From: an uncultured Pelagibacteraceae bacterium | GTDB taxonomy: Bacteria; Pseudomonadota; Alphaproteobacteria; Pelagibacterales; Pelagibacteraceae | Assembly: GCA_902611405.1 (NCBI GenBank) | Contig: CACLZL010000006.1 | Span: 1 to 64,000 of the forward strand | DNA length: 64,000 nucleotides | Reading direction: 5' to 3' | Shown here: positions 46,038 to 64,000 of the stretch, in pieces | Position numbering within the stretch: the first letter of the stretch is position 1 | Layout: each line of letters starts with the position of its first letter | The notes under the pieces: model-generated | What the model was told of the DNA's origin: nothing | Databases searched by the model: none | What the model saw: the letters and a program-made list of their open reading frames with translations, nothing else | Position numbers and translations under genes: made by a program

Positions 46038-46066
46038 TTTTAACAAAACTGTAACAAATCTGTAAT
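46038..46066 (+). promoter_or_regulatory. Pho box of pstS
   Basis: Half-sites TTTTAAC (46038), CTGTAAC (46049) and CTGTAAT (46060) with four-base spacers AAAA and AAAT. The last two form CTGTAAC-AAAT-CTGTAAT, close to the enterobacterial consensus of two CTGTCAT-like repeats separated by four bases. The site ends 67 bases before the pstS start, the expected place for PhoB activation. Confidence 0.8.
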
Positions 46067-46133: not shown

Positions 46134-47168
46134 ATGAAAAAACTAACTACTATCCTTGCTTCGTTTTTAGTGCTTGCTCTAAGTACTGTAACGTCACAAG
46201 CGAGAGATCAAATTACAATCGTTGGTTCTTCAACTGTATTCCCATACGCAACAGTAGTTGCTGAGAGATTCGGTAAACAAGGATTTAAAACTCCTATCAT
46301 CGAGTCAACTGGAACAGGTGGTGGAGCTAAATTATTTTGCGCAGGTGTAGGTGAAGCTCACCCTGATATCACTAACGCTTCAAGAGCTATGAAAGATAAA
46401 GAAAAAGCTCTTTGTGCAAAAAATGGTATTACTGATATTGTAGAAATTATTATTGGTAACGACGGTATAACATTAGCTTACAGTTTAGATGCAGAGCCAG
46501 TTAACTTTACAAAAGAACATTTGTATTTAGCACTTGCTAAACATACAGTTGTTGATGGTAAATTAGTTGATAACATTTACAAAAACTGGAATGAGATCGA
46601 TTCAAGCTTACCAAATAAGCCAATTAAAGTAATGATTCCTCCAGGAACTTCTGGAACAAGAGATGCTTGGAATTCTTTAGTAATGAAAAAAGGTATGACT
46701 AAAGAGGCTAAAGCTCTTTATAAAGCTGGTTTTGAAGCTGGAAATAAAAAATACAAAAAACCTCAAAAACTTTACAGAGAAGATGGATTAGCAATTGAAG
46801 TTGGAGAAAACGATAGCTTAATCATTCAAAAACTAGTTGAAGATAAAGATATGTTTGGTTTCTTCGGTTTTAGTTATTACTTAGCAGCTAAAGATAAATT
46901 ACAAGCAGCAAGTATTGATGGAGGACAACCTTCATTAGAGTCTATTCAAGATTATAGCTATGCAGTTGCAAGACCTTTATTCTTCTATGTGAAAAAAGCT
47001 CACGTAGGTGTAATTCCAGGTTTACATGAATTTGTAAAAGAATTTACAAAAACTGGAACAATTGGAAAAAGAGGTTACTTAGCTGACATTGGTTTAGTAC
47101 CATTGGATAAAGCAATGTACAGAACTACAAGAGATAACGCTATAGATCTTGTAGCAATGAGCGAGTAA
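46134..47168 (+). CDS. pstS: PstS, periplasmic phosphate-binding protein
   Basis: A 344-residue substrate-binding protein of the high-affinity phosphate importer. The signal peptide ends near VTSQA (residue 23). The mature protein starts RDQITIVGSSTVFPYA, the family's first phosphate-binding loop (G-S-S-T), and contains ESTGTGGGAKLFCAG and PPGTSGTRDAWNS, further phosphate contacts. A Pho box lies 67 bases upstream and an AAAGGAAA ribosome site directly before the start. A terminator follows. Codon use is biased toward preferred codons, as in aapJ, consistent with very high expression under phosphate limitation. Confidence 0.96.
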   Translation: MKKLTTILASFLVLALSTVTSQARDQITIVGSSTVFPYATVVAERFGKQGFKTPIIESTGTGGGAKLFCAGVGEAHPDITNASRAMKDKEKALCAKNGITDIVEIIIGNDGITLAYSLDAEPVNFTKEHLYLALAKHTVVDGKLVDNIYKNWNEIDSSLPNKPIKVMIPPGTSGTRDAWNSLVMKKGMTKEAKALYKAGFEAGNKKYKKPQKLYREDGLAIEVGENDSLIIQKLVEDKDMFGFFGFSYYLAAKDKLQAASIDGGQPSLESIQDYSYAVARPLFFYVKKAHVGVIPGLHEFVKEFTKTGTIGKRGYLADIGLVPLDKAMYRTTRDNAIDLVAMSE

Positions 47169-57416: not shown

Positions 57417-57445
57417 CTGTAATAAATTTGTAATATTTTTGTAAC
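57417..57445 (+). promoter_or_regulatory. Pho-box-like triple repeat upstream of phnX
   Basis: Half-sites CTGTAAT (57417), TTGTAAT (57428) and TTGTAAC (57439), spacers AAAT and ATTT: three near-identical units at exact 11-bp period, the best-conserved copy in the window. It faces phnX (start 57560, 114 bases downstream) and immediately precedes the divergent TPR gene's start codon. The remainder of the 143-base gap is AT-rich with no other signal. Confidence 0.75.
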
Positions 57446-57559: not shown

Positions 57560-58357
57560 ATGAAAAATTCCAAAGTAGAGGCAATAATATTTGATTTAGC
57601 AGGTACATTAATAGATTTTGGAAGCCTTGCACCATCTCAAGTTCTTATTGAAATATTTAACAGGTTTGGAATTAAAATTTCTCGAAAACAAGCCATAGGA
57701 CCAATGGGTATCGAAAAACGAGCTCATATAAAAGCATTACTAACAACAAGAATAATTAATTTACAGTGGAAAAAAAAATTTAAATCAAAACCAACAGATA
57801 AAGATATTGATAAATTGTTTAAACTTTTTAATCCAGAATTAAAAAAAATAATTAAGAAACATTCAAAATTTATATCAGGAAGTAAAAATACTATAGATTT
57901 TATAAAAAAAAAAAAAATAAAAATAGGAGTCAATACTGGATATTCAGAAGAAATTCTAAAAGTTATATTGCCGGAATTAAAAAAACAAAGATTTATACCT
58001 GATGTATCATATAGTTCTTCTTACACCAAAATTGGAAGACCTTCTGCAGAAATAATTTATAGGATTTTTTCTGATTTAAATATAACCAAGGGATCAAATT
58101 GTATTAAAGTAGATGATACTATTCCTGGTTTACAAGAAGGATTAAATGCTGGAATGTGGGTAATAGGAGTAATATTTTCTGGAAATGAATTTGGCAAAAA
58201 TGAATATGAATTTAATAAATTAACCGACAAAGAAAAATTAAAAATTAGAAAAAAAATCTCTCATAAGTTTAAGAAAATAGGCGCACATTACGTAATTGAT
58301 ACAATTAAGGATTTACCGAAAATAATTGAAAAGATTGAAAATAAAATTATTTCGTAA
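57560..58357 (+). CDS. phnX: Phosphonoacetaldehyde hydrolase (phosphonatase) PhnX
   Basis: A 265-residue HAD-superfamily enzyme that splits the C-P bond of phosphonoacetaldehyde to acetaldehyde and phosphate. The nucleophile Asp12 is in IIFDLAGTLIDFG. The Schiff-base lysine specific to phosphonatases is at residue 53 in GPMGIEKRAHIKAL, the same number as in the characterised Bacillus enzyme. SGSKNTIDFI, VNTGYSEEI, GRPSAEIIY and KVDDTIPGLQEGLNAG complete the HAD motifs. The usual supplier PhnW (2-aminoethylphosphonate transaminase) is not in the window. A triple Pho-box-like repeat lies upstream. Confidence 0.9.
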   Translation: MKNSKVEAIIFDLAGTLIDFGSLAPSQVLIEIFNRFGIKISRKQAIGPMGIEKRAHIKALLTTRIINLQWKKKFKSKPTDKDIDKLFKLFNPELKKIIKKHSKFISGSKNTIDFIKKKKIKIGVNTGYSEEILKVILPELKKQRFIPDVSYSSSYTKIGRPSAEIIYRIFSDLNITKGSNCIKVDDTIPGLQEGLNAGMWVIGVIFSGNEFGKNEYEFNKLTDKEKLKIRKKISHKFKKIGAHYVIDTIKDLPKIIEKIENKIIS

Positions 58358-59006
58358 AAAGCATTTTTTTTATTACAAATATTGCTAGCAGTGCTCCTAA
58401 TAGCTCTGCAATTATAAAGAAAGGTGTATTTAAATAATTTATTCCGGTGAATGTATCTGTAAAAGTTCTAGCTATTGCAACAGCAGGATTTGCAAATGAA
58501 GTTGATGAAGTGAACCAATATCCAGCTGTAATGTAAAAACCGACACATGCAGCGGTTACAACTTTTCCACTTTTCATTGATCCAAATATAATTAAAATTA
58601 ATCCAAAAGTTGCTACTACTTCAGCAACAAATATATAAACTCCATCTCTTGTTTTAGATGATAACTCATAAATAGGTAATTCAAAAAAAAAATTTGCTAA
58701 ACCTACACCTGCTAGGCAACCTAATATTTGTGAAAAGATATAAATATGAATTAATTTTGATTTTAATCTTCCTGTAAAAAACATACTTAATGTTACAAAT
58801 GGATTAAAATGTGCTCCTGATATATCTGAAAATACAGTTATCAGAACAAATAAACCAGCTCCTGTTGCAATTGTATTTGCTAATAACATAACAGCAGTAT
58901 CGTTGGTAAGATTTTGAGCCATGATACCTGAACCAACAACTATCATTACTAAGAAGCAACTTCCTATGAATTCACTATAAATTATTTTTTTTTTACTATT
59001 TTTCAT
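58347..59006 (-). CDS. MIP-family aquaglyceroporin associated with arsenic (AqpS-like)
   Basis: A 219-residue channel (start ATG at 59006; an ATG six codons upstream would overlap arsC by 29 bases). About six transmembrane helices and two half-helix loops: the first pore box reads GAHFNPFVTLS, with NPF in place of NPA, the second SFANPAVAIARTFTDTF with a regular NPA and the conserved Arg. Coupling to arsC matches the aqpS-arsC arrangement known from rhizobia, where the channel lets arsenite out after arsenate reduction. Its 3' end overlaps the convergent phnX by 11 bases. Confidence 0.87.
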   Translation of the reverse strand: MKNSKKKIIYSEFIGSCFLVMIVVGSGIMAQNLTNDTAVMLLANTIATGAGLFVLITVFSDISGAHFNPFVTLSMFFTGRLKSKLIHIYIFSQILGCLAGVGLANFFFELPIYELSSKTRDGVYIFVAEVVATFGLILIIFGSMKSGKVVTAACVGFYITAGYWFTSSTSFANPAVAIARTFTDTFTGINYLNTPFFIIAELLGALLAIFVIKKMLFTK

Positions 59007-59451
59007 AGTTTTTAATCCAATCATTTATTCTGGTTTCTAAATTGGAATAAGTTTTATGTATTTCTGTTGAAATCAATTCCTCTTTATTTGGTTTATCACT
59101 ATTTTCTAACTCATTAATGATATGAACAGGATCTTCAATATCCCAATGTACTATCTTTTCAGGCGATGGCCAGACTGGACAAACTTCATTGCTAGCATTG
59201 TTACATACAGTAAACACCTGATCAAATGATGTTTTCTCATTCAAGAATTTGTTAAAGTTTTTTGATGACAGATTTTTTGTATCAAAATTATTTTCATTTA
59301 GATACTTAATGACATATTTATTAATTATACCTGATGGTTTGCTTCCTGCACTATAACCAATAAATCTATCCTTGTGATATTTGTTAACCACACTTTCAGC
59401 TAATATACTTCTATGAGAATTTCCAGTACAAACAAATAAAAGTTTTTTCAT
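58996..59451 (-). CDS. arsC: Arsenate reductase ArsC (low-molecular-weight phosphatase type)
   Basis: A 151-residue enzyme with the P-loop FVCTGNSHRSILAE (C-x5-R at residues 8-14) and the further redox cysteines in TVCNNASNEVCPVWP (about residue 82 and 90), the thioredoxin-coupled ArsC relay. It reduces arsenate to arsenite. It overlaps the downstream aquaporin and is divergent from the phnZ-like gene. Arsenate enters through phosphate transporters, which explains its place in a phosphorus-limitation island. Confidence 0.9.
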   Translation of the reverse strand: MKKLLFVCTGNSHRSILAESVVNKYHKDRFIGYSAGSKPSGIINKYVIKYLNENNFDTKNLSSKNFNKFLNEKTSFDQVFTVCNNASNEVCPVWPSPEKIVHWDIEDPVHIINELENSDKPNKEELISTEIHKTYSNLETRINDWIKNYEK

Positions 59452-59509
59452 TATTAACTTTTATTATTATAAATCATTTTTGCTAGACTTAATGAACACT
59501 AAATCTAAA

Positions 59510-59527
59510 TTGTAACAAAACTGAAAC
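59510..59527 (+). promoter_or_regulatory. Pho-box-like repeat upstream of the phnZ-like gene
   Basis: TTGTAAC-AAAA-CTGAAAC: two half-sites with a four-base spacer, ending 22 bases before the start at 59550; a further TTGTAAT follows out of phase by two bases. It lies in the 98-base divergent gap with arsC. Confidence 0.55.
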
Positions 59528-59549
59528 ATTTGTAATTTAAAAGAATAAA

Positions 59550-60101
59550 ATGGATATTAAGTCAAATATTATCAATTTATTTAAAATTATAGAAGATATT
59601 GGGTCGGACAAACAATATGGAAATGAAAAAGTTTCACAATTCGAACACGCAATTCAATGTGCTTTATTGGCAAAAAAAAATAATGAGAACCATTTTTTCA
59701 TCACCGCAGCTCTATTCCATGATATTGGTCACTTAATTAATAATGATAAAGAAGCCATCAAAAAAGGAGTAGATAAAAAGCATGAGAATTTAGGATCCCT
59801 TTTTCTTTCTAAATTTTTTCCAGAGGATGTCACAAGACTAATTAAAGGGCATGTACCGGCTAAAAGATATTTAGTTTATTATGAGAAAGGATATTATGAG
59901 ACTTTATCTATTGCTTCAAAACGAAGTTTGGATGTTCAAGGTGGTAGTTTTTCTGAAGAAGAGGCAAACGAATTTATTAAACAACCTTTTATGCAAGATG
60001 CAGTTAGACTAAGGAAATATGATGATCTAGCTAAAGTTAAAAATTTAGAAATTCCAAATATAAATTTTTTTTATAAACATGTAGAAAGCAGTTTTAAATA
60101 A
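59550..60101 (+). CDS. phnZ: PhnZ-like HD-domain oxygenase for phosphonate cleavage
   Basis: A 183-residue mixed-valent di-iron HD protein. The Tyr-x-x-Glu pair of PhnZ substrate recognition appears as QYGNE. Metal ligands are in QFEHAIQCA, ALFHDIGHLI, KKHENLG and IKGHVPAKRYLV, followed by SIASKRSLDVQGGSFSEEE and RLRKYDDLAKV, all matching PhnZ and its relatives. PhnZ cleaves 2-amino-1-hydroxyethylphosphonate to glycine and phosphate; related enzymes act on hydroxymethylphosphonate or trimethylated substrates. The hydroxylating partner PhnY is not in the window. It ends with an eight-base overlap with the MFS gene. Confidence 0.85.
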   Translation: MDIKSNIINLFKIIEDIGSDKQYGNEKVSQFEHAIQCALLAKKNNENHFFITAALFHDIGHLINNDKEAIKKGVDKKHENLGSLFLSKFFPEDVTRLIKGHVPAKRYLVYYEKGYYETLSIASKRSLDVQGGSFSEEEANEFIKQPFMQDAVRLRKYDDLAKVKNLEIPNINFFYKHVESSFK

Positions 60102-61266
60102 ATTTTTTTTTGTTTAGAAAAATTGCAGTTACGTTTCCAAATATTGCCAATATAAAAAATATAAATATTAACAAGTCATATCCCCCTACATTCCATATCA
60201 AGGAACCTATCCATGGCCCCAAAATACTCCCTATCATGTATAGCAAGGCTAAAATACCATGAACATTACCAAAGTTTTTTTGACCAAAAGCATCATTTTG
60301 AACTAAAGGTTTTAAAATAGCCATACTTCCATATGCTGCACTATTAAACAAAACAAATAAAAATGCTAAATAATGATTAAAATTTATGAAATACAAAAAA
60401 ATTGTTCCAAGTATGAGGGAGTAAAAACAAATTACAAATAATTTTATATTTGCTTTATTTCCCCCAAATATCATAACTAAAATTCTTCCCAAAACCTGTC
60501 CAGGTCCAAACATCGAAGCTGTCAGCACAGCTAGTGCTAGACTCAATCCTTTATCCTGTAGCATTGGAATTATATGGGTTGTAATAGCACCTGCATTAAA
60601 TCCAACAACAAATAATGAAAAACTAAATAACCAAAATCTATTGTCTTTAAGTATTATTAGAAGTCTGGAATTTTTATAAGTTTGTTTTTTAATTATTTTA
60701 AACTCTTTTTTAATTATATTTTTGAAACCAAAATAATTGGCTGGTGAACTAATCAATATGTTTAATAATCCAAAAATCAATACAGTAAACCTCCAATCAT
60801 ATTGTTCTGTTAAATAGGTTGCGGTAGGAAATGTATATGTGCTTGCAAATCCAGCAAACAAAGTAATTATTGCAATAGATGTTTTGGCCTTTGACTTTAA
60901 ATTAATAGTAATAAAACTAAATAGCATTGTATAAAGACATCCACCGGAGGTTCCGCTTACAAGCAACCAAGCAACTAAAAATTCAGTATATGTGTTAGCT
61001 AATGATAGATAAATTACACTTAATCCTAACAATATAGGACTTGCCCACATCATTTGAAAGCCAAGGTTTTTATCAACAAACTTACCAAGAATGGGTAACA
61101 ACAAGCTATGTAAAACAAGGCCAAGAGAGTAAATAAAAGTTAAATTGTTTCTTGAAATACCAAGTTCATTTTCCCAAGTTAATAACAGTGCTGAAAATAA
61201 GTACATACAGCTGCTGTAACAAAAGGTAACAGAAATACCTATTAAAAATGCTGGATAATATTTCAT
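60094..61266 (-). CDS. MFS transporter, substrate unknown
   Basis: A 390-residue carrier with twelve predicted transmembrane helices in two six-helix halves separated by a basic loop (about residues 190-208, KNIIKKEFKIIKKQ). The GKFVDKNLG segment after helix 2 fits the MFS loop motif loosely, and MFGPGQVLGRIL in the second half resembles the monocarboxylate/oxalate-type branch. It does not resemble ArsJ as I recall it. The position between phosphonate genes suggests import or export of a phosphonate-derived or arsenic compound, but that is only context. Confidence 0.82.
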   Translation of the reverse strand: MKYYPAFLIGISVTFCYSSCMYLFSALLLTWENELGISRNNLTFIYSLGLVLHSLLLPILGKFVDKNLGFQMMWASPILLGLSVIYLSLANTYTEFLVAWLLVSGTSGGCLYTMLFSFITINLKSKAKTSIAIITLFAGFASTYTFPTATYLTEQYDWRFTVLIFGLLNILISSPANYFGFKNIIKKEFKIIKKQTYKNSRLLIILKDNRFWLFSFSLFVVGFNAGAITTHIIPMLQDKGLSLALAVLTASMFGPGQVLGRILVMIFGGNKANIKLFVICFYSLILGTIFLYFINFNHYLAFLFVLFNSAAYGSMAILKPLVQNDAFGQKNFGNVHGILALLYMIGSILGPWIGSLIWNVGGYDLLIFIFFILAIFGNVTAIFLNKKKFI

Positions 61267-61817: not shown

Positions 61818-63218
61818 TTACCTTACAATTAATTGATCAGATCCAATCAATATTCTTCTAAGCCAAGCAGATAATCTGTCCATAAATATTACAACAGCTA
61901 AAACTAAAATTGCCATGTAGGCTACATTTTCAAAATCATTTCCAGTAGCTAGCGCACCTAAAAATTGTAACCCAATTCCTCCTGCACCCATTGCACCTAT
62001 AATTACAGCACCTCTAGTATTTGACTCTAAATAGTACAAGGATTGAGATACAAAAATTGGAAGTATTTGAGGAATTATACCAAATCTATGTTGTAGAAAC
62101 TTATTAGCTCCCGTAGATACAACTCCTTCTTGTTGTTTCTTCTCAGTATTCTCAATTGCTTCAGAATACAATTTACCTAAAGTACCCGTATCGGTAAAAC
62201 CAATTGCAAAAATTCCAGTGAAGGGTCCTGGACCAAAAGCTCTTAAAAATATTAAACTCCAAATTAAAAAATCTATTCCTCTTAAAGTATCAAATAATCT
62301 TCTCAACATAAATCTCAGAGTTTTAATTGGGGTAACGTTGTATGCCGCAAGAAAAGATAAGGGAAGAGCCATAACTGTAGCAAACATTGTCCCTAATACA
62401 GCCATAACAATTGTTTCAAGCATAGCCCACCAAACTCTACCGTGCATAAATGCGTCATTGTCTTTAATTTCTGTAAAGAAAAGTTTTAAATTAGACATTT
62501 CAGGAACAACTCTCTCATTAGAAAAAGTCAAACCTAGTGCTTCGAAAAAGGTATATGGTTCTAACGGACTTGAGAAATCAAACCAAAAATATTTCCATCC
62601 GATACTGTAACGATGAATTTCAACTTTTTTTGGATATACTTGAATTCTCTCATACAAAGTTGGTCTAAATTCAACTCTATTTTCTGTGATTCTAAAACCT
62701 TTTAAATCTTCTATGACCAAATCCTCTGAACCTACAAGGTAAGGTTTACCATTAGAATTTAATTTTATGGTAAAATCTCTCTCATATTTTGGAAAATTTA
62801 CAATCTCGACTTTATCTTTGTATAATATTGCCTTACCTTTATTATTAAACTCAACTACATTGCCAACATTATCAGAATTTTTGTAAAACCAATCTGGAAT
62901 TGATTTATCAAGATTATCTCTTCCATAAACACTTCTATAATTTCCTTCAAAAGCTATTTTAATATCCTCATGATTTTCCCATTTCATTGTTACATGATCT
63001 TTGTGTGCATATGTGTCTAAGACAAACATAGCAGCATTTTGTGGTTTCCATTTTTTTGGGATATCAACAACATCTAAAGTAAAAAAACCTACTATTAAAT
63101 ATACTAAGACGAGAAAAAAAATTATTTGGCCTCTTAATCTACTCTTTCTGGCTTGTTTAAATGTGTCAGGAAATAATTTACGAATATTTTCTCTTTGAAT
63201 AGCTAAACTAGAACTCAT
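61818..63218 (-). CDS. phnE: Phosphonate ABC transporter permease PhnE (long form)
   Basis: A 466-residue permease. After a cytoplasmic N-terminus and one transmembrane helix (about 31-49) comes a long beta-rich soluble segment (about 60-245) with no transmembrane helix. The transport core follows: MLETIVMAVLGTMFATVMALPLSFLAAYN, RGIDFLIWSLIFLRAFGPG, the EAA-type loop and the hallmark GAMGAGGIGLQFLGAL (about residue 420). Simple PhnE proteins are about 260 residues; long versions occur as the second PhnE in alphaproteobacteria. It overlaps the upstream phnE by four bases. Confidence 0.92.
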   Translation of the reverse strand: MSSSLAIQRENIRKLFPDTFKQARKSRLRGQIIFFLVLVYLIVGFFTLDVVDIPKKWKPQNAAMFVLDTYAHKDHVTMKWENHEDIKIAFEGNYRSVYGRDNLDKSIPDWFYKNSDNVGNVVEFNNKGKAILYKDKVEIVNFPKYERDFTIKLNSNGKPYLVGSEDLVIEDLKGFRITENRVEFRPTLYERIQVYPKKVEIHRYSIGWKYFWFDFSSPLEPYTFFEALGLTFSNERVVPEMSNLKLFFTEIKDNDAFMHGRVWWAMLETIVMAVLGTMFATVMALPLSFLAAYNVTPIKTLRFMLRRLFDTLRGIDFLIWSLIFLRAFGPGPFTGIFAIGFTDTGTLGKLYSEAIENTEKKQQEGVVSTGANKFLQHRFGIIPQILPIFVSQSLYYLESNTRGAVIIGAMGAGGIGLQFLGALATGNDFENVAYMAILVLAVVIFMDRLSAWLRRILIGSDQLIVR

Positions 63219-64000
63219 TGATTTGCTCCAATTAATTTATGTCTCCAATATGCAGACAAATAATCTAATGCAATTATCGTACCAACCAGTAAGAACATAC
63301 ACGCTAAAACATCAGCTCCATAATTCCACTGAATTAGAGCCGCTAACATTTCTCCAATTCCACCTGCACCAACAAAACCTAATATTGTAGATTCTCTAAC
63401 ATTAATTTCTAACCTCAATATTCCATAACTTAAAAACAAAGGTAGTACCTGGGGAAGAACTGAAAATCTTATCTTCTGTGTCCAAGTTGCACCAACAGAA
63501 CTTAAACCTTCAATAGGTTTTCCATCACAATTTTCTATAGCCTCTGTAAATAATTTACCAAGTGCTCCAGCAGTATGTATTGTTATAGCAATTACAGCTG
63601 GTAAAGATGATTTACCCATTAGATATAAAAACACCATTGCTATTATTAATGTTGGAAATGATCTTGTCACATCCATTAAAAATTTTGTAAATTGAATAAC
63701 TCTTTTGTTTCTAATTAGGTTCCTACTTGAAAAAATTGCAAATATAATTGCTAAAATAAAACCTATAGAAGTTGAAAATAAAGCAATATTTAAAGTAATA
63801 ATTAATTCAGGAATATACTTAATAACTCTTGGCCAATATTTCCATCCCATCTCAAAAGTGTCTACAAATAAATCTCTAGGGTAGTTAAAAAAATTAGCTA
63901 TACCTCTTCCAAAAGACCCTGCATTTGCTTCTAACGATACCAAGGTACCACCAAAAAAAATTAATATTAGAATTGCAATTCCAAGTAGCGAGGACCTAGT
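63215..64000 (-). CDS. phnE: Phosphonate ABC transporter permease PhnE (first copy, 5' end beyond window)
   Basis: The frame is open to the end of the window; the TTG at 63943 is an internal codon inside a transmembrane segment, so the true start lies beyond base 64000. The visible 261 codons include a first helix (ILILIFFGG), the WKYWPRVIKYIPELIITLNIALFST entry (core PELIITLNIA), TRSFPTLIIAMVFLYLMG, LFTEAIENCDGKPIEGLSSVGA (EAA loop) and FVGAGGIGEMLAALIQWNYG. Binding protein PhnD and ATPase PhnC are expected further along on this strand, outside the window. Confidence 0.92.
   Translation of the reverse strand, partial: TRSSLLGIAILILIFFGGTLVSLEANAGSFGRGIANFFNYPRDLFVDTFEMGWKYWPRVIKYIPELIITLNIALFSTSIGFILAIIFAIFSSRNLIRNKRVIQFTKFLMDVTRSFPTLIIAMVFLYLMGKSSLPAVIAITIHTAGALGKLFTEAIENCDGKPIEGLSSVGATWTQKIRFSVLPQVLPLFLSYGILRLEINVRESTILGFVGAGGIGEMLAALIQWNYGADVLACMFLLVGTIIALDYLSAYWRHKLIGANQ

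Follow-up and report, generated by a model that had tools for sequence, protein, structure and literature searches.

A PhnZ-like oxygenase gene and phnX of SAR11 bacteria lie beside a C-P lyase operon, with no PhnW and no methylphosphonate-type PhnY found

Surveys use phnX and phnZ as markers for the breakdown of phosphonates, mostly of 2-aminoethylphosphonate, and in one such survey the Pelagibacterales account for 45% of marine phnZ sequences, according to a section of that paper (PMC9381506). The closest described relatives of the enzymes considered here come with partners: the phosphonatase PhnX usually with PhnW, the HD oxygenases PhnZ and TmpB with PhnY and TmpA, respectively, and PhnZ1 from Gimesia maris with its own PhnY. 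HD mixed-valent diiron oxygenases carry the ligand motif H...HD...H...H...D, and a Tyr-x-x-Glu pair is reported for PhnZ and TmpB alike in excerpts of PMC8177086. It is also known, from extracts of the respective papers, that phnZ forms subclades with different substrates (PMC8316502), that some carbon-phosphorus (C-P) lyase operons contain a substrate-specific gene and that phnZ co-occurs with phnX or phnA (PMC9381506). We have analyzed a window of 64,000 bases, the first part of contig CACLZL010000006.1 (79,757 bases; C6 hereafter) of an uncultured Pelagibacteraceae bacterium (G000; 1.217 Mb in 39 contigs, 88% complete), in which phnX lies near a gene for a PhnZ-like HD oxygenase that we call HD_A. 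Relatives of G000 in the contig collection are titled Pelagibacteraceae or Pelagibacterales, i.e., SAR11. Our analysis adds that searches of SAR11 genomes turned up neither PhnW nor a methylphosphonate-type PhnY, and it adds the gene block that carries HD_A and a contrast between C-P-lyase-linked and hydroxylase-linked HD genes. A literature search restricted to titles and the openings of abstracts found no description of a partnerless SAR11 HD gene, which does not prove it unpublished.

The reading that we favor, with confidence and doubt in about equal measure, is that HD_A would be a partnerless, PhoB-controlled accessory of C-P lyase acting on ready-made alpha-hydroxyphosphonates, and that PhnX would be fed phosphonoacetaldehyde by a source other than PhnW; the substrates in this proposal are those that we infer. 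Both genes would be parts of a single SAR11 phosphorus-scavenging island under PhoB control, built round C-P lyase. C-P lyase would handle many phosphonates and may handle alpha-hydroxyphosphonates poorly; the latter would arrive already hydroxylated through PhnCDE, and HD_A would remove their phosphate, for instance by converting hydroxymethylphosphonate (HMP) to formate and phosphate, or 1-hydroxy-2-aminoethylphosphonate (HAEP) to glycine and phosphate. Cleavage of both compounds by the Gimesia maris enzyme GmPhnZ is reported in a passage of PMC10574752. Candidate feeds for PhnX would be direct uptake of phosphonoacetaldehyde, an unlinked PbfA-, PbfB-, PbfC- or PbfD-like enzyme, or another aminotransferase that makes it as a side reaction. 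Phosphonoacetaldehyde is the product of PbfA and of the PbfB, PbfC and PbfD groups, and pbfD is often found beside phnX alone (portions of PMC10574752 and PMC10590968); according to the former, a review, PbfD may take the place of PhnW when phnW is lacking. A preliminary description of this DNA had offered alternative enzymes or substrates as one of two explanations for the missing partners. That option stands in sharper form, and it is qualified by the unlinked hydroxylase weighed below.

HD_A matches the PDB chains of PhnZ (4mlm, 3e-27) and TmpB (6npa, 1.5e-26). Its residues H33, H57, D58, H78, H101 and D158 supply the six metal ligands in the family pattern, and Tyr23 and Glu26 form the loop pair within the sequence YGNE. 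The preliminary assignment to a PhnZ-like HD oxygenase with a Tyr-x-x-Glu pair is borne out by these matches, which point to membership of the HD mixed-valent diiron oxygenase family with a predicted activity of that kind. Since the pair is common to PhnZ and TmpB, the loop does not identify the substrate. HD_A differs from PhnZ in the loop (YGNE versus YIGE), in a score below the Phn-HD cut-off and in that no methylphosphonate-type PhnY was found. With the TmpB model NF049941 it reaches 137.2 bits, below the cut-off of 300, its position in the tree is outside the TmpB clade, and no TmpA adjoins it. The higher score for the two models of characterized subtypes is that with the HMP dioxygenase of Gimesia maris (NF052439, 159.7 bits), likewise below a cut-off of 300, and in contrast to that system no hydroxylase partner was found. 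As for further HD genes of G000, PF13023 gave no match passing an E-value of 0.001 and is a poor probe, and a third HD match (C1:173985), which covers only positions 3-60 of 179 and adjoins a purF-like open reading frame (ORF), was discarded.

The product of phnX exceeds the cut-off of 220 bits for the phosphonatase equivalog TIGR01422, and its nucleophile Asp12 and Schiff-base Lys53 align with those of Bacillus cereus phosphonatase chains such as 2iof. Both the Lys53 noted in the preliminary description and the 1.2 kb that it placed between the two genes (Table 1) hold. What sets this phnX apart from the described phosphonatases is its setting in a Pho-type island beside C-P lyase, with no PhnW found in G000 or the searched relatives. 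Both genes look to be under purifying selection, with ratios of nonsynonymous to synonymous substitution (dN/dS) against three relatives of 0.12-0.19 for phnX and 0.07-0.09 for HD_A. In one SAR11 relative phnX is broken into two frames (L070:6743-7536), representing either gene loss or an assembly error, and the HD gene there is open.

Each gene stands behind a Pho-box-like repeat, as had been pointed out before. The pattern YTGWAAYN4YTGWAAY has four matches at three places in the window, namely before a pstS-like ORF that serves as a yardstick, before phnX and before HD_A, compared with a mean of 0.29 in shuffled sequences, a count that is not independent because the pattern was written after the sites had been seen. 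The repeat before the HD gene is kept in all 43 relatives, 39 to 52 bases upstream of the matched start. Judged by these tandem repeats, phnX and HD_A would belong to the PhoB regulon. In L005, whose 19.8 kb include the C-P lyase operon, the exact pattern is not found.

Our genome-wide partner searches were made for PhnW and PhyH, and they place no match to either in the window, in keeping with the preliminary statement that neither PhnW nor PhnY lies there. Its companion proposal, that the partners follow just beyond position 64,000, did not survive the reading of C6 to its end at 79757: in these 15.8 kb we read phnE-D-C, phnF and the C-P lyase operon, phnW was not found, and the sole PhyH gene (C6:74017-74901) reaches 28.7 bits with the model of methylphosphonate hydroxylase (PhnY). 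An ordinary pathway with phnW and phnY immediately outside the window is therefore rejected. A search of the rest of the genome for phnW, which the preliminary description had advised, yielded none above the cut-off in this 88% complete assembly. PhnW was likewise not found in the 45 distinct HD_A genomes that stand behind 47 entries (contigs being common to G166 and G210, and to G140 and G231). One of these relatives, G035, is a single contig of 1,456,888 bases with 99% completeness, so that incompleteness does not explain the lack of PhnW there. Among the 197 genomes of our family survey PhnW occurs once, in a 73% complete genome of another genus. Two kinds of weak PhnW match were set aside. 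The one in G000 (C1:218535, 33 bits) lies within a 405-residue ORF of an apparent suf cluster and hence is taken, by our own naming, for a cysteine desulfurase; the seven in relatives, frames of 400 residues with 23-25% identity, look like another class-V aminotransferase, which is a guess. PhyH genes number four in G000 and three in G035, where no PhyH match lies near the phn genes. All seven proteins reach at most 28.7 bits on NF052437, the methylphosphonate-hydroxylase model of the GmPhnY type to which this comparison is limited. As a control, a PhyH neighbor of an HD gene in another genome of the class (L162) scores 193.2 bits on it, itself below the cut-off of 500.

The last 2.2 kb of the window, on which the preliminary description is silent, hold two phosphonate permease genes, after which the C-P lyase operon follows (Table 1). 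From the window's end to C6:73692 we read phnD, phnC, phnF, phnG, phnH, phnI, phnJ, phnK, phnL, phnN, a TIGR03223-type gene and phnM. PhnD (254.2 versus 261.1 bits), PhnF (145.7 versus 156.8) and the TIGR03223-type gene (174.5 versus 248.95) fall below their cut-offs, and phnI and phnJ have no NCBIfam match at 1e-10; these two and phnL, which lay outside the scan, owe their names to the gene order and to similarity with C-P lyase loci elsewhere that are annotated or evident. The remainder of C6 contains, besides the PhyH gene, WD40-, CobW- and zinc-uptake-like genes by ORF reading. Read in the same way, the region upstream of phnX carries a pstS-like gene, pstC, pstA, pstB, phoU, phoB, ppk and ppx. 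The enzyme families, the Pho-box-like sites, the linkage to importer and C-P lyase genes, the purifying selection and searches that yielded neither PhnW nor a PhnY of the methylphosphonate type form that part of our proposal which the sequence itself shows.

Table 1. Features around phnX and HD_A; positions are those of the window unless marked C6 (MFS, major facilitator superfamily; LMWP, low-molecular-weight phosphatase; ABC, ATP-binding cassette).
Feature	Position	Strand	Evidence
Pho-box-like repeat before pstS-like ORF 46134-47168 (yardstick)	46049..46066	+	
Pho-box-like repeats before phnX, 11-bp spacing	57417..57445	+	
phnX, phosphonoacetaldehyde hydrolase family, 265 residues	57560..58357	+	TIGR01422 278.8 bits; B. 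cereus alignment
Aquaporin-family gene (MIP)	58347..59024	-	PF00230 92.8 bits, cut-off 25
arsC, LMWP-type arsenate reductase-like	58996..59451	-	PF01451 57.4, cut-off 23.2; TIGR02691 67.2, below cut-off 174.3
Pho-box-like repeat before HD_A, in intergenic space common to divergent arsC	59510..59527	+	
HD_A, predicted PhnZ-like HD oxygenase, 183 residues	59550..60101	+	TIGR03276; PhnZ/TmpB matches; ligands; loop
MFS transporter, weakly ArsK-like	60094..61266	-	NF033733 125.9, below cut-off 400
Small conserved protein, 140 residues	61321..61743	+	No NCBIfam match; in 42/43 relatives
phnE1, phosphonate ABC permease	61818..63218	-	TIGR01097 228.9, cut-off 216.7
phnE2, phosphonate ABC permease	63215..64000, continuing to C6:64069	-	TIGR01097 227.5, cut-off 216.7

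Comparison of 43 SAR11 loci from a named collection indicates which neighbors accompany HD_A. The MFS gene stands beside it in every locus. arsC adjoins it in 42 (the exception, L079, starts at a contig end 191 bases before HD_A), and phnE1 is likewise present in 42 (L062 ends with its contig at the MFS gene). The aquaporin gene occurs in 35 loci and phnX in 33. Since arsC, MFS gene and phnE1 are nearly constant and phnX is not, HD_A is bound to an arsC-HD-MFS-phn block rather than to phnX. Both phnX and the aquaporin gene are missing from seven loci whose left flank is long; phnX lies elsewhere in two of the genomes and was not found in the other five. In many loci about 8 kb separate phnX from the aquaporin-arsC-HD_A-MFS block, which itself stays together. 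In L045 (7063-14968) this interval contains a gene for glycerol-3-phosphate dehydrogenase and ugp-like transport genes, and a gap of the same size recurs in many relatives; the enzyme dependent on flavin adenine dinucleotide (FAD) that stands beside phnX there was considered as a Pbf enzyme and rejected, as it is that dehydrogenase. SAR11 bacteria possess at least two types of ArsC, and within the family survey the neighbor of HD_A is of a type seen in no genome that lacks HD_A. Between a znuA-like gene and phnM of G035 (L167:14379-14540), a short segment with 48% identity resembles ArsC and is perhaps a remnant.

To compare HD_A with its relatives outside SAR11, 385 genomes of the same class were searched, 87 of which, G000 included, had a match, at 100 places (98 outside G000). 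We fetched 81 of these 98 (the 17 left out being among the weaker), together with 14 SAR11 loci of a second, separate HD type (HD_B) and three of the 28 plasmid records with a match. One of these 98 loci, L240, was excluded, its HD ORF being of a third, unrelated type, which leaves 97. C-P lyase genes are present in 24 of them, and in 16 of these the HD gene lies at most 350 bp from phnM. Two of the three plasmids carry C-P lyase, Nostoc NZ_CP046705 and Variovorax NZ_LR594669, with the HD gene in the operon; in this setting such genes resemble HD_A, which differs from them in that it is transcribed divergently from arsC and is not part of the phnG-M operon. Within 1.5 kb of the HD gene, a hydroxylase gene of the PhyH or TauD/TmpA type occurs in 0 of the 24 C-P-lyase-linked loci, 20 of the 60 other non-SAR11 loci and 9 of the 13 HD_B loci; the corresponding numbers are 1, 22 and 10 for 4 kb, and 2, 24 and 11 for the whole stretch fetched. 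Hydroxylase genes, where they occur, are almost always found within 300 bp, and the contrast can therefore not be put down to phn genes crowding them out. The loops differ as well. In HD_A the residue after the Tyr is Gly, as it is in 21 of the 24 C-P-lyase-linked rows of the alignment (17 with the Glu kept, Y-G-x-E), compared with 4 of the 30 hydroxylase-linked rows, 25 of which read Tyr-[Leu/Ile/Met]-Gly-Glu, as in PhnZ and TmpB. HD_A thus shows the marks by which we group the C-P-lyase-linked, partnerless HD genes: C-P lyase linkage, no close hydroxylase, and Gly after Tyr. Throughout the alignment the loop Glu is replaced by Ser, Ala, Thr or Gln in 16 of 101 rows, which hints at substrates lacking an amino group. 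No relative appeared in a single scan of viral contigs, and among phages there is one record, a 42% match.

Several observations weigh against the role that we favor for HD_A. Its score on the Phn-HD model TIGR03276, 202.1 bits, is below the curated cut-off of 214.6, which none of the 197 family genomes reaches. Fisher tests of the hydroxylase contrast give p values of 0.0005 at 1.5 kb and 0.0023 at 4 kb that overstate the case because the loci are related to each other. No hydroxylase lies within 4 kb in 38 of the 60 other non-SAR11 loci either, and Gly follows the loop Tyr in 33 of the 43 remaining rows as well; consequently, neither mark is peculiar to loci with C-P lyase, and the loop sets off the hydroxylase-linked type without naming the C-P-lyase type. 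The nearest outside relative of HD_A (G399, 51%) stands beside phnW and not with C-P lyase, which speaks against a simple C-P lyase story. In the tree HD_A and G399 are placed near the C-P-lyase-linked rows with weak support; long branches or composition may account for the join of HD_A with HD_B, which is AT-rich. The hydroxylase models were small, that for PhyH being built from 22 seeds, all of SAR11, and that for TauD/TmpA from the loci themselves; the former nonetheless recovered the L162 partner. Finally, contig C4 of G000 carries TauD and gamma-butyrobetaine-hydroxylase-like genes.

These last genes lead to the alternative that survives best, which we regard as possible but doubtful: a dispersed oxidative pathway in which an unlinked 2-oxoglutarate-dependent hydroxylase of the PhyH, TauD or gamma-butyrobetaine-hydroxylase type would act first and HD_A would finish. 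Suitable genes exist, namely the PhyH genes of G000 and G035 and, on C4, the TauD gene and the TmpA/gamma-butyrobetaine-hydroxylase-like gene (272.8 bits on the TmpA model, below its cut-off of 400). L162 has such a pair, a PhyH gene and an HD gene that overlap behind phn importer genes, and our PhnY comparison covered the methylphosphonate type and not the aminoethylphosphonate type. None of the seven PhyH proteins of G000 and G035 resembles a methylphosphonate-type PhnY, however, no PhyH group is common to the ten HD_A genomes tested (the largest occurs in six, group sizes being rough as some genomes are incomplete and some ORFs were extracted short), and the C4 TauD gene directly adjoins HD_B instead. 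That HD_B gene, which has a YIGE loop, is packed with the TauD-type dioxygenase gene and a choline-dehydrogenase-like gene near carnitine-type genes (L006:8922-11872, corresponding to G000 C4:13921-16871). The dehydrogenase-like neighbor recurs in ten other fetched SAR11 loci, eight of them with TauD, and the cluster is possibly a TmpAB-like route for a trimethylated aminophosphonate. Two observations concern other genomes. The stretch L162:2351-6380 comprises phnD-phnC-phnE-type importer genes followed by the overlapping PhyH and HD genes, a compact cassette of the PhnY-PhnZ type. A protein of about 210 residues with weak similarity to ureidoglycolate lyase is encoded by phnW in G399 (L152:7841-8470) and between phnX and phnW in G130 (L047:872-1513); the two are 65% identical and represent a possible phosphonate gene.

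A single feed for both enzymes seems unlikely to us. HAEP would then be turned into glycine by HD_A and, by a PbfA-like lyase, into phosphonoacetaldehyde for PhnX. PbfA converts (R)-HAEP to phosphonoacetaldehyde, as a passage of PMC10574752 states, and in the family survey the 4 genomes of 197 with phnX above the cut-off are also those with an HD gene of the 200-bit HD_A type. Against this stands the failure to find phnX in 7 of the 43 HD_A genomes, whose assemblies are incomplete, and the required lyase is a putative one.

The weakest of the alternatives, which we judge very improbable, would make HD_A the missing oxygenase of a SAR11 arsenic cycle. Controlled by PhoB, and with an arsenate reductase and exporters of its own alongside, it would break hydroxylated methylarsenicals at their C-As bond into formate and arsenate as part of the arsC/aquaporin/MFS block. 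The near-constant arsC and MFS neighbors would fit, as would the cohesion of the block across the 8-kb gap and the ArsC type proper to the four HD_A genomes of the survey, whose proteins are at least 93% identical to that of the window, compared with 37-58% in 94 other genomes with a match. According to parts of PMC6426599, strain HTCC7211 oxidizes the methyl groups of dimethylarsenate (DMA) to CO2, with monomethylarsenate (MMA) and arsenate appearing, by an enzyme that is unknown; in those parts arsC and an aquaporin are the only arsenic genes named, and CsdB or C-P lyase is proposed. If true, the arsenic role of HD_A would explain why DMA methyl carbon appears as CO2 and not as the methane expected from a C-P-lyase-like reaction. 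However, phnE1 is linked to HD_A just as tightly, an ArsC-like ORF occurs in only one (L152) of the 98 other HD loci fetched, the MFS protein is only weakly ArsK-like, and strain HTCC1062, without known arsenic genes, shows an ATP response to DMA too, if a smaller one (same excerpts; the HD content of HTCC1062 lies outside this comparison).

Of the 26 genomes in the 197-genome sample that bear a Phn-HD gene, 22 have HD_B only, and HD_A is therefore a minority of such phnZ counts. The case of the proposed partnerless accessory of C-P lyase also offers a few candidate substrates that can be tested, in a group that is abundant in the ocean and has a cultured strain (HTCC7211, as introduced in part of PMC6426599). 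If the SAR11 genes work without PhnW and PhnY, then counts of marker genes would misjudge which phosphonates SAR11 bacteria use in phosphate-poor seas.

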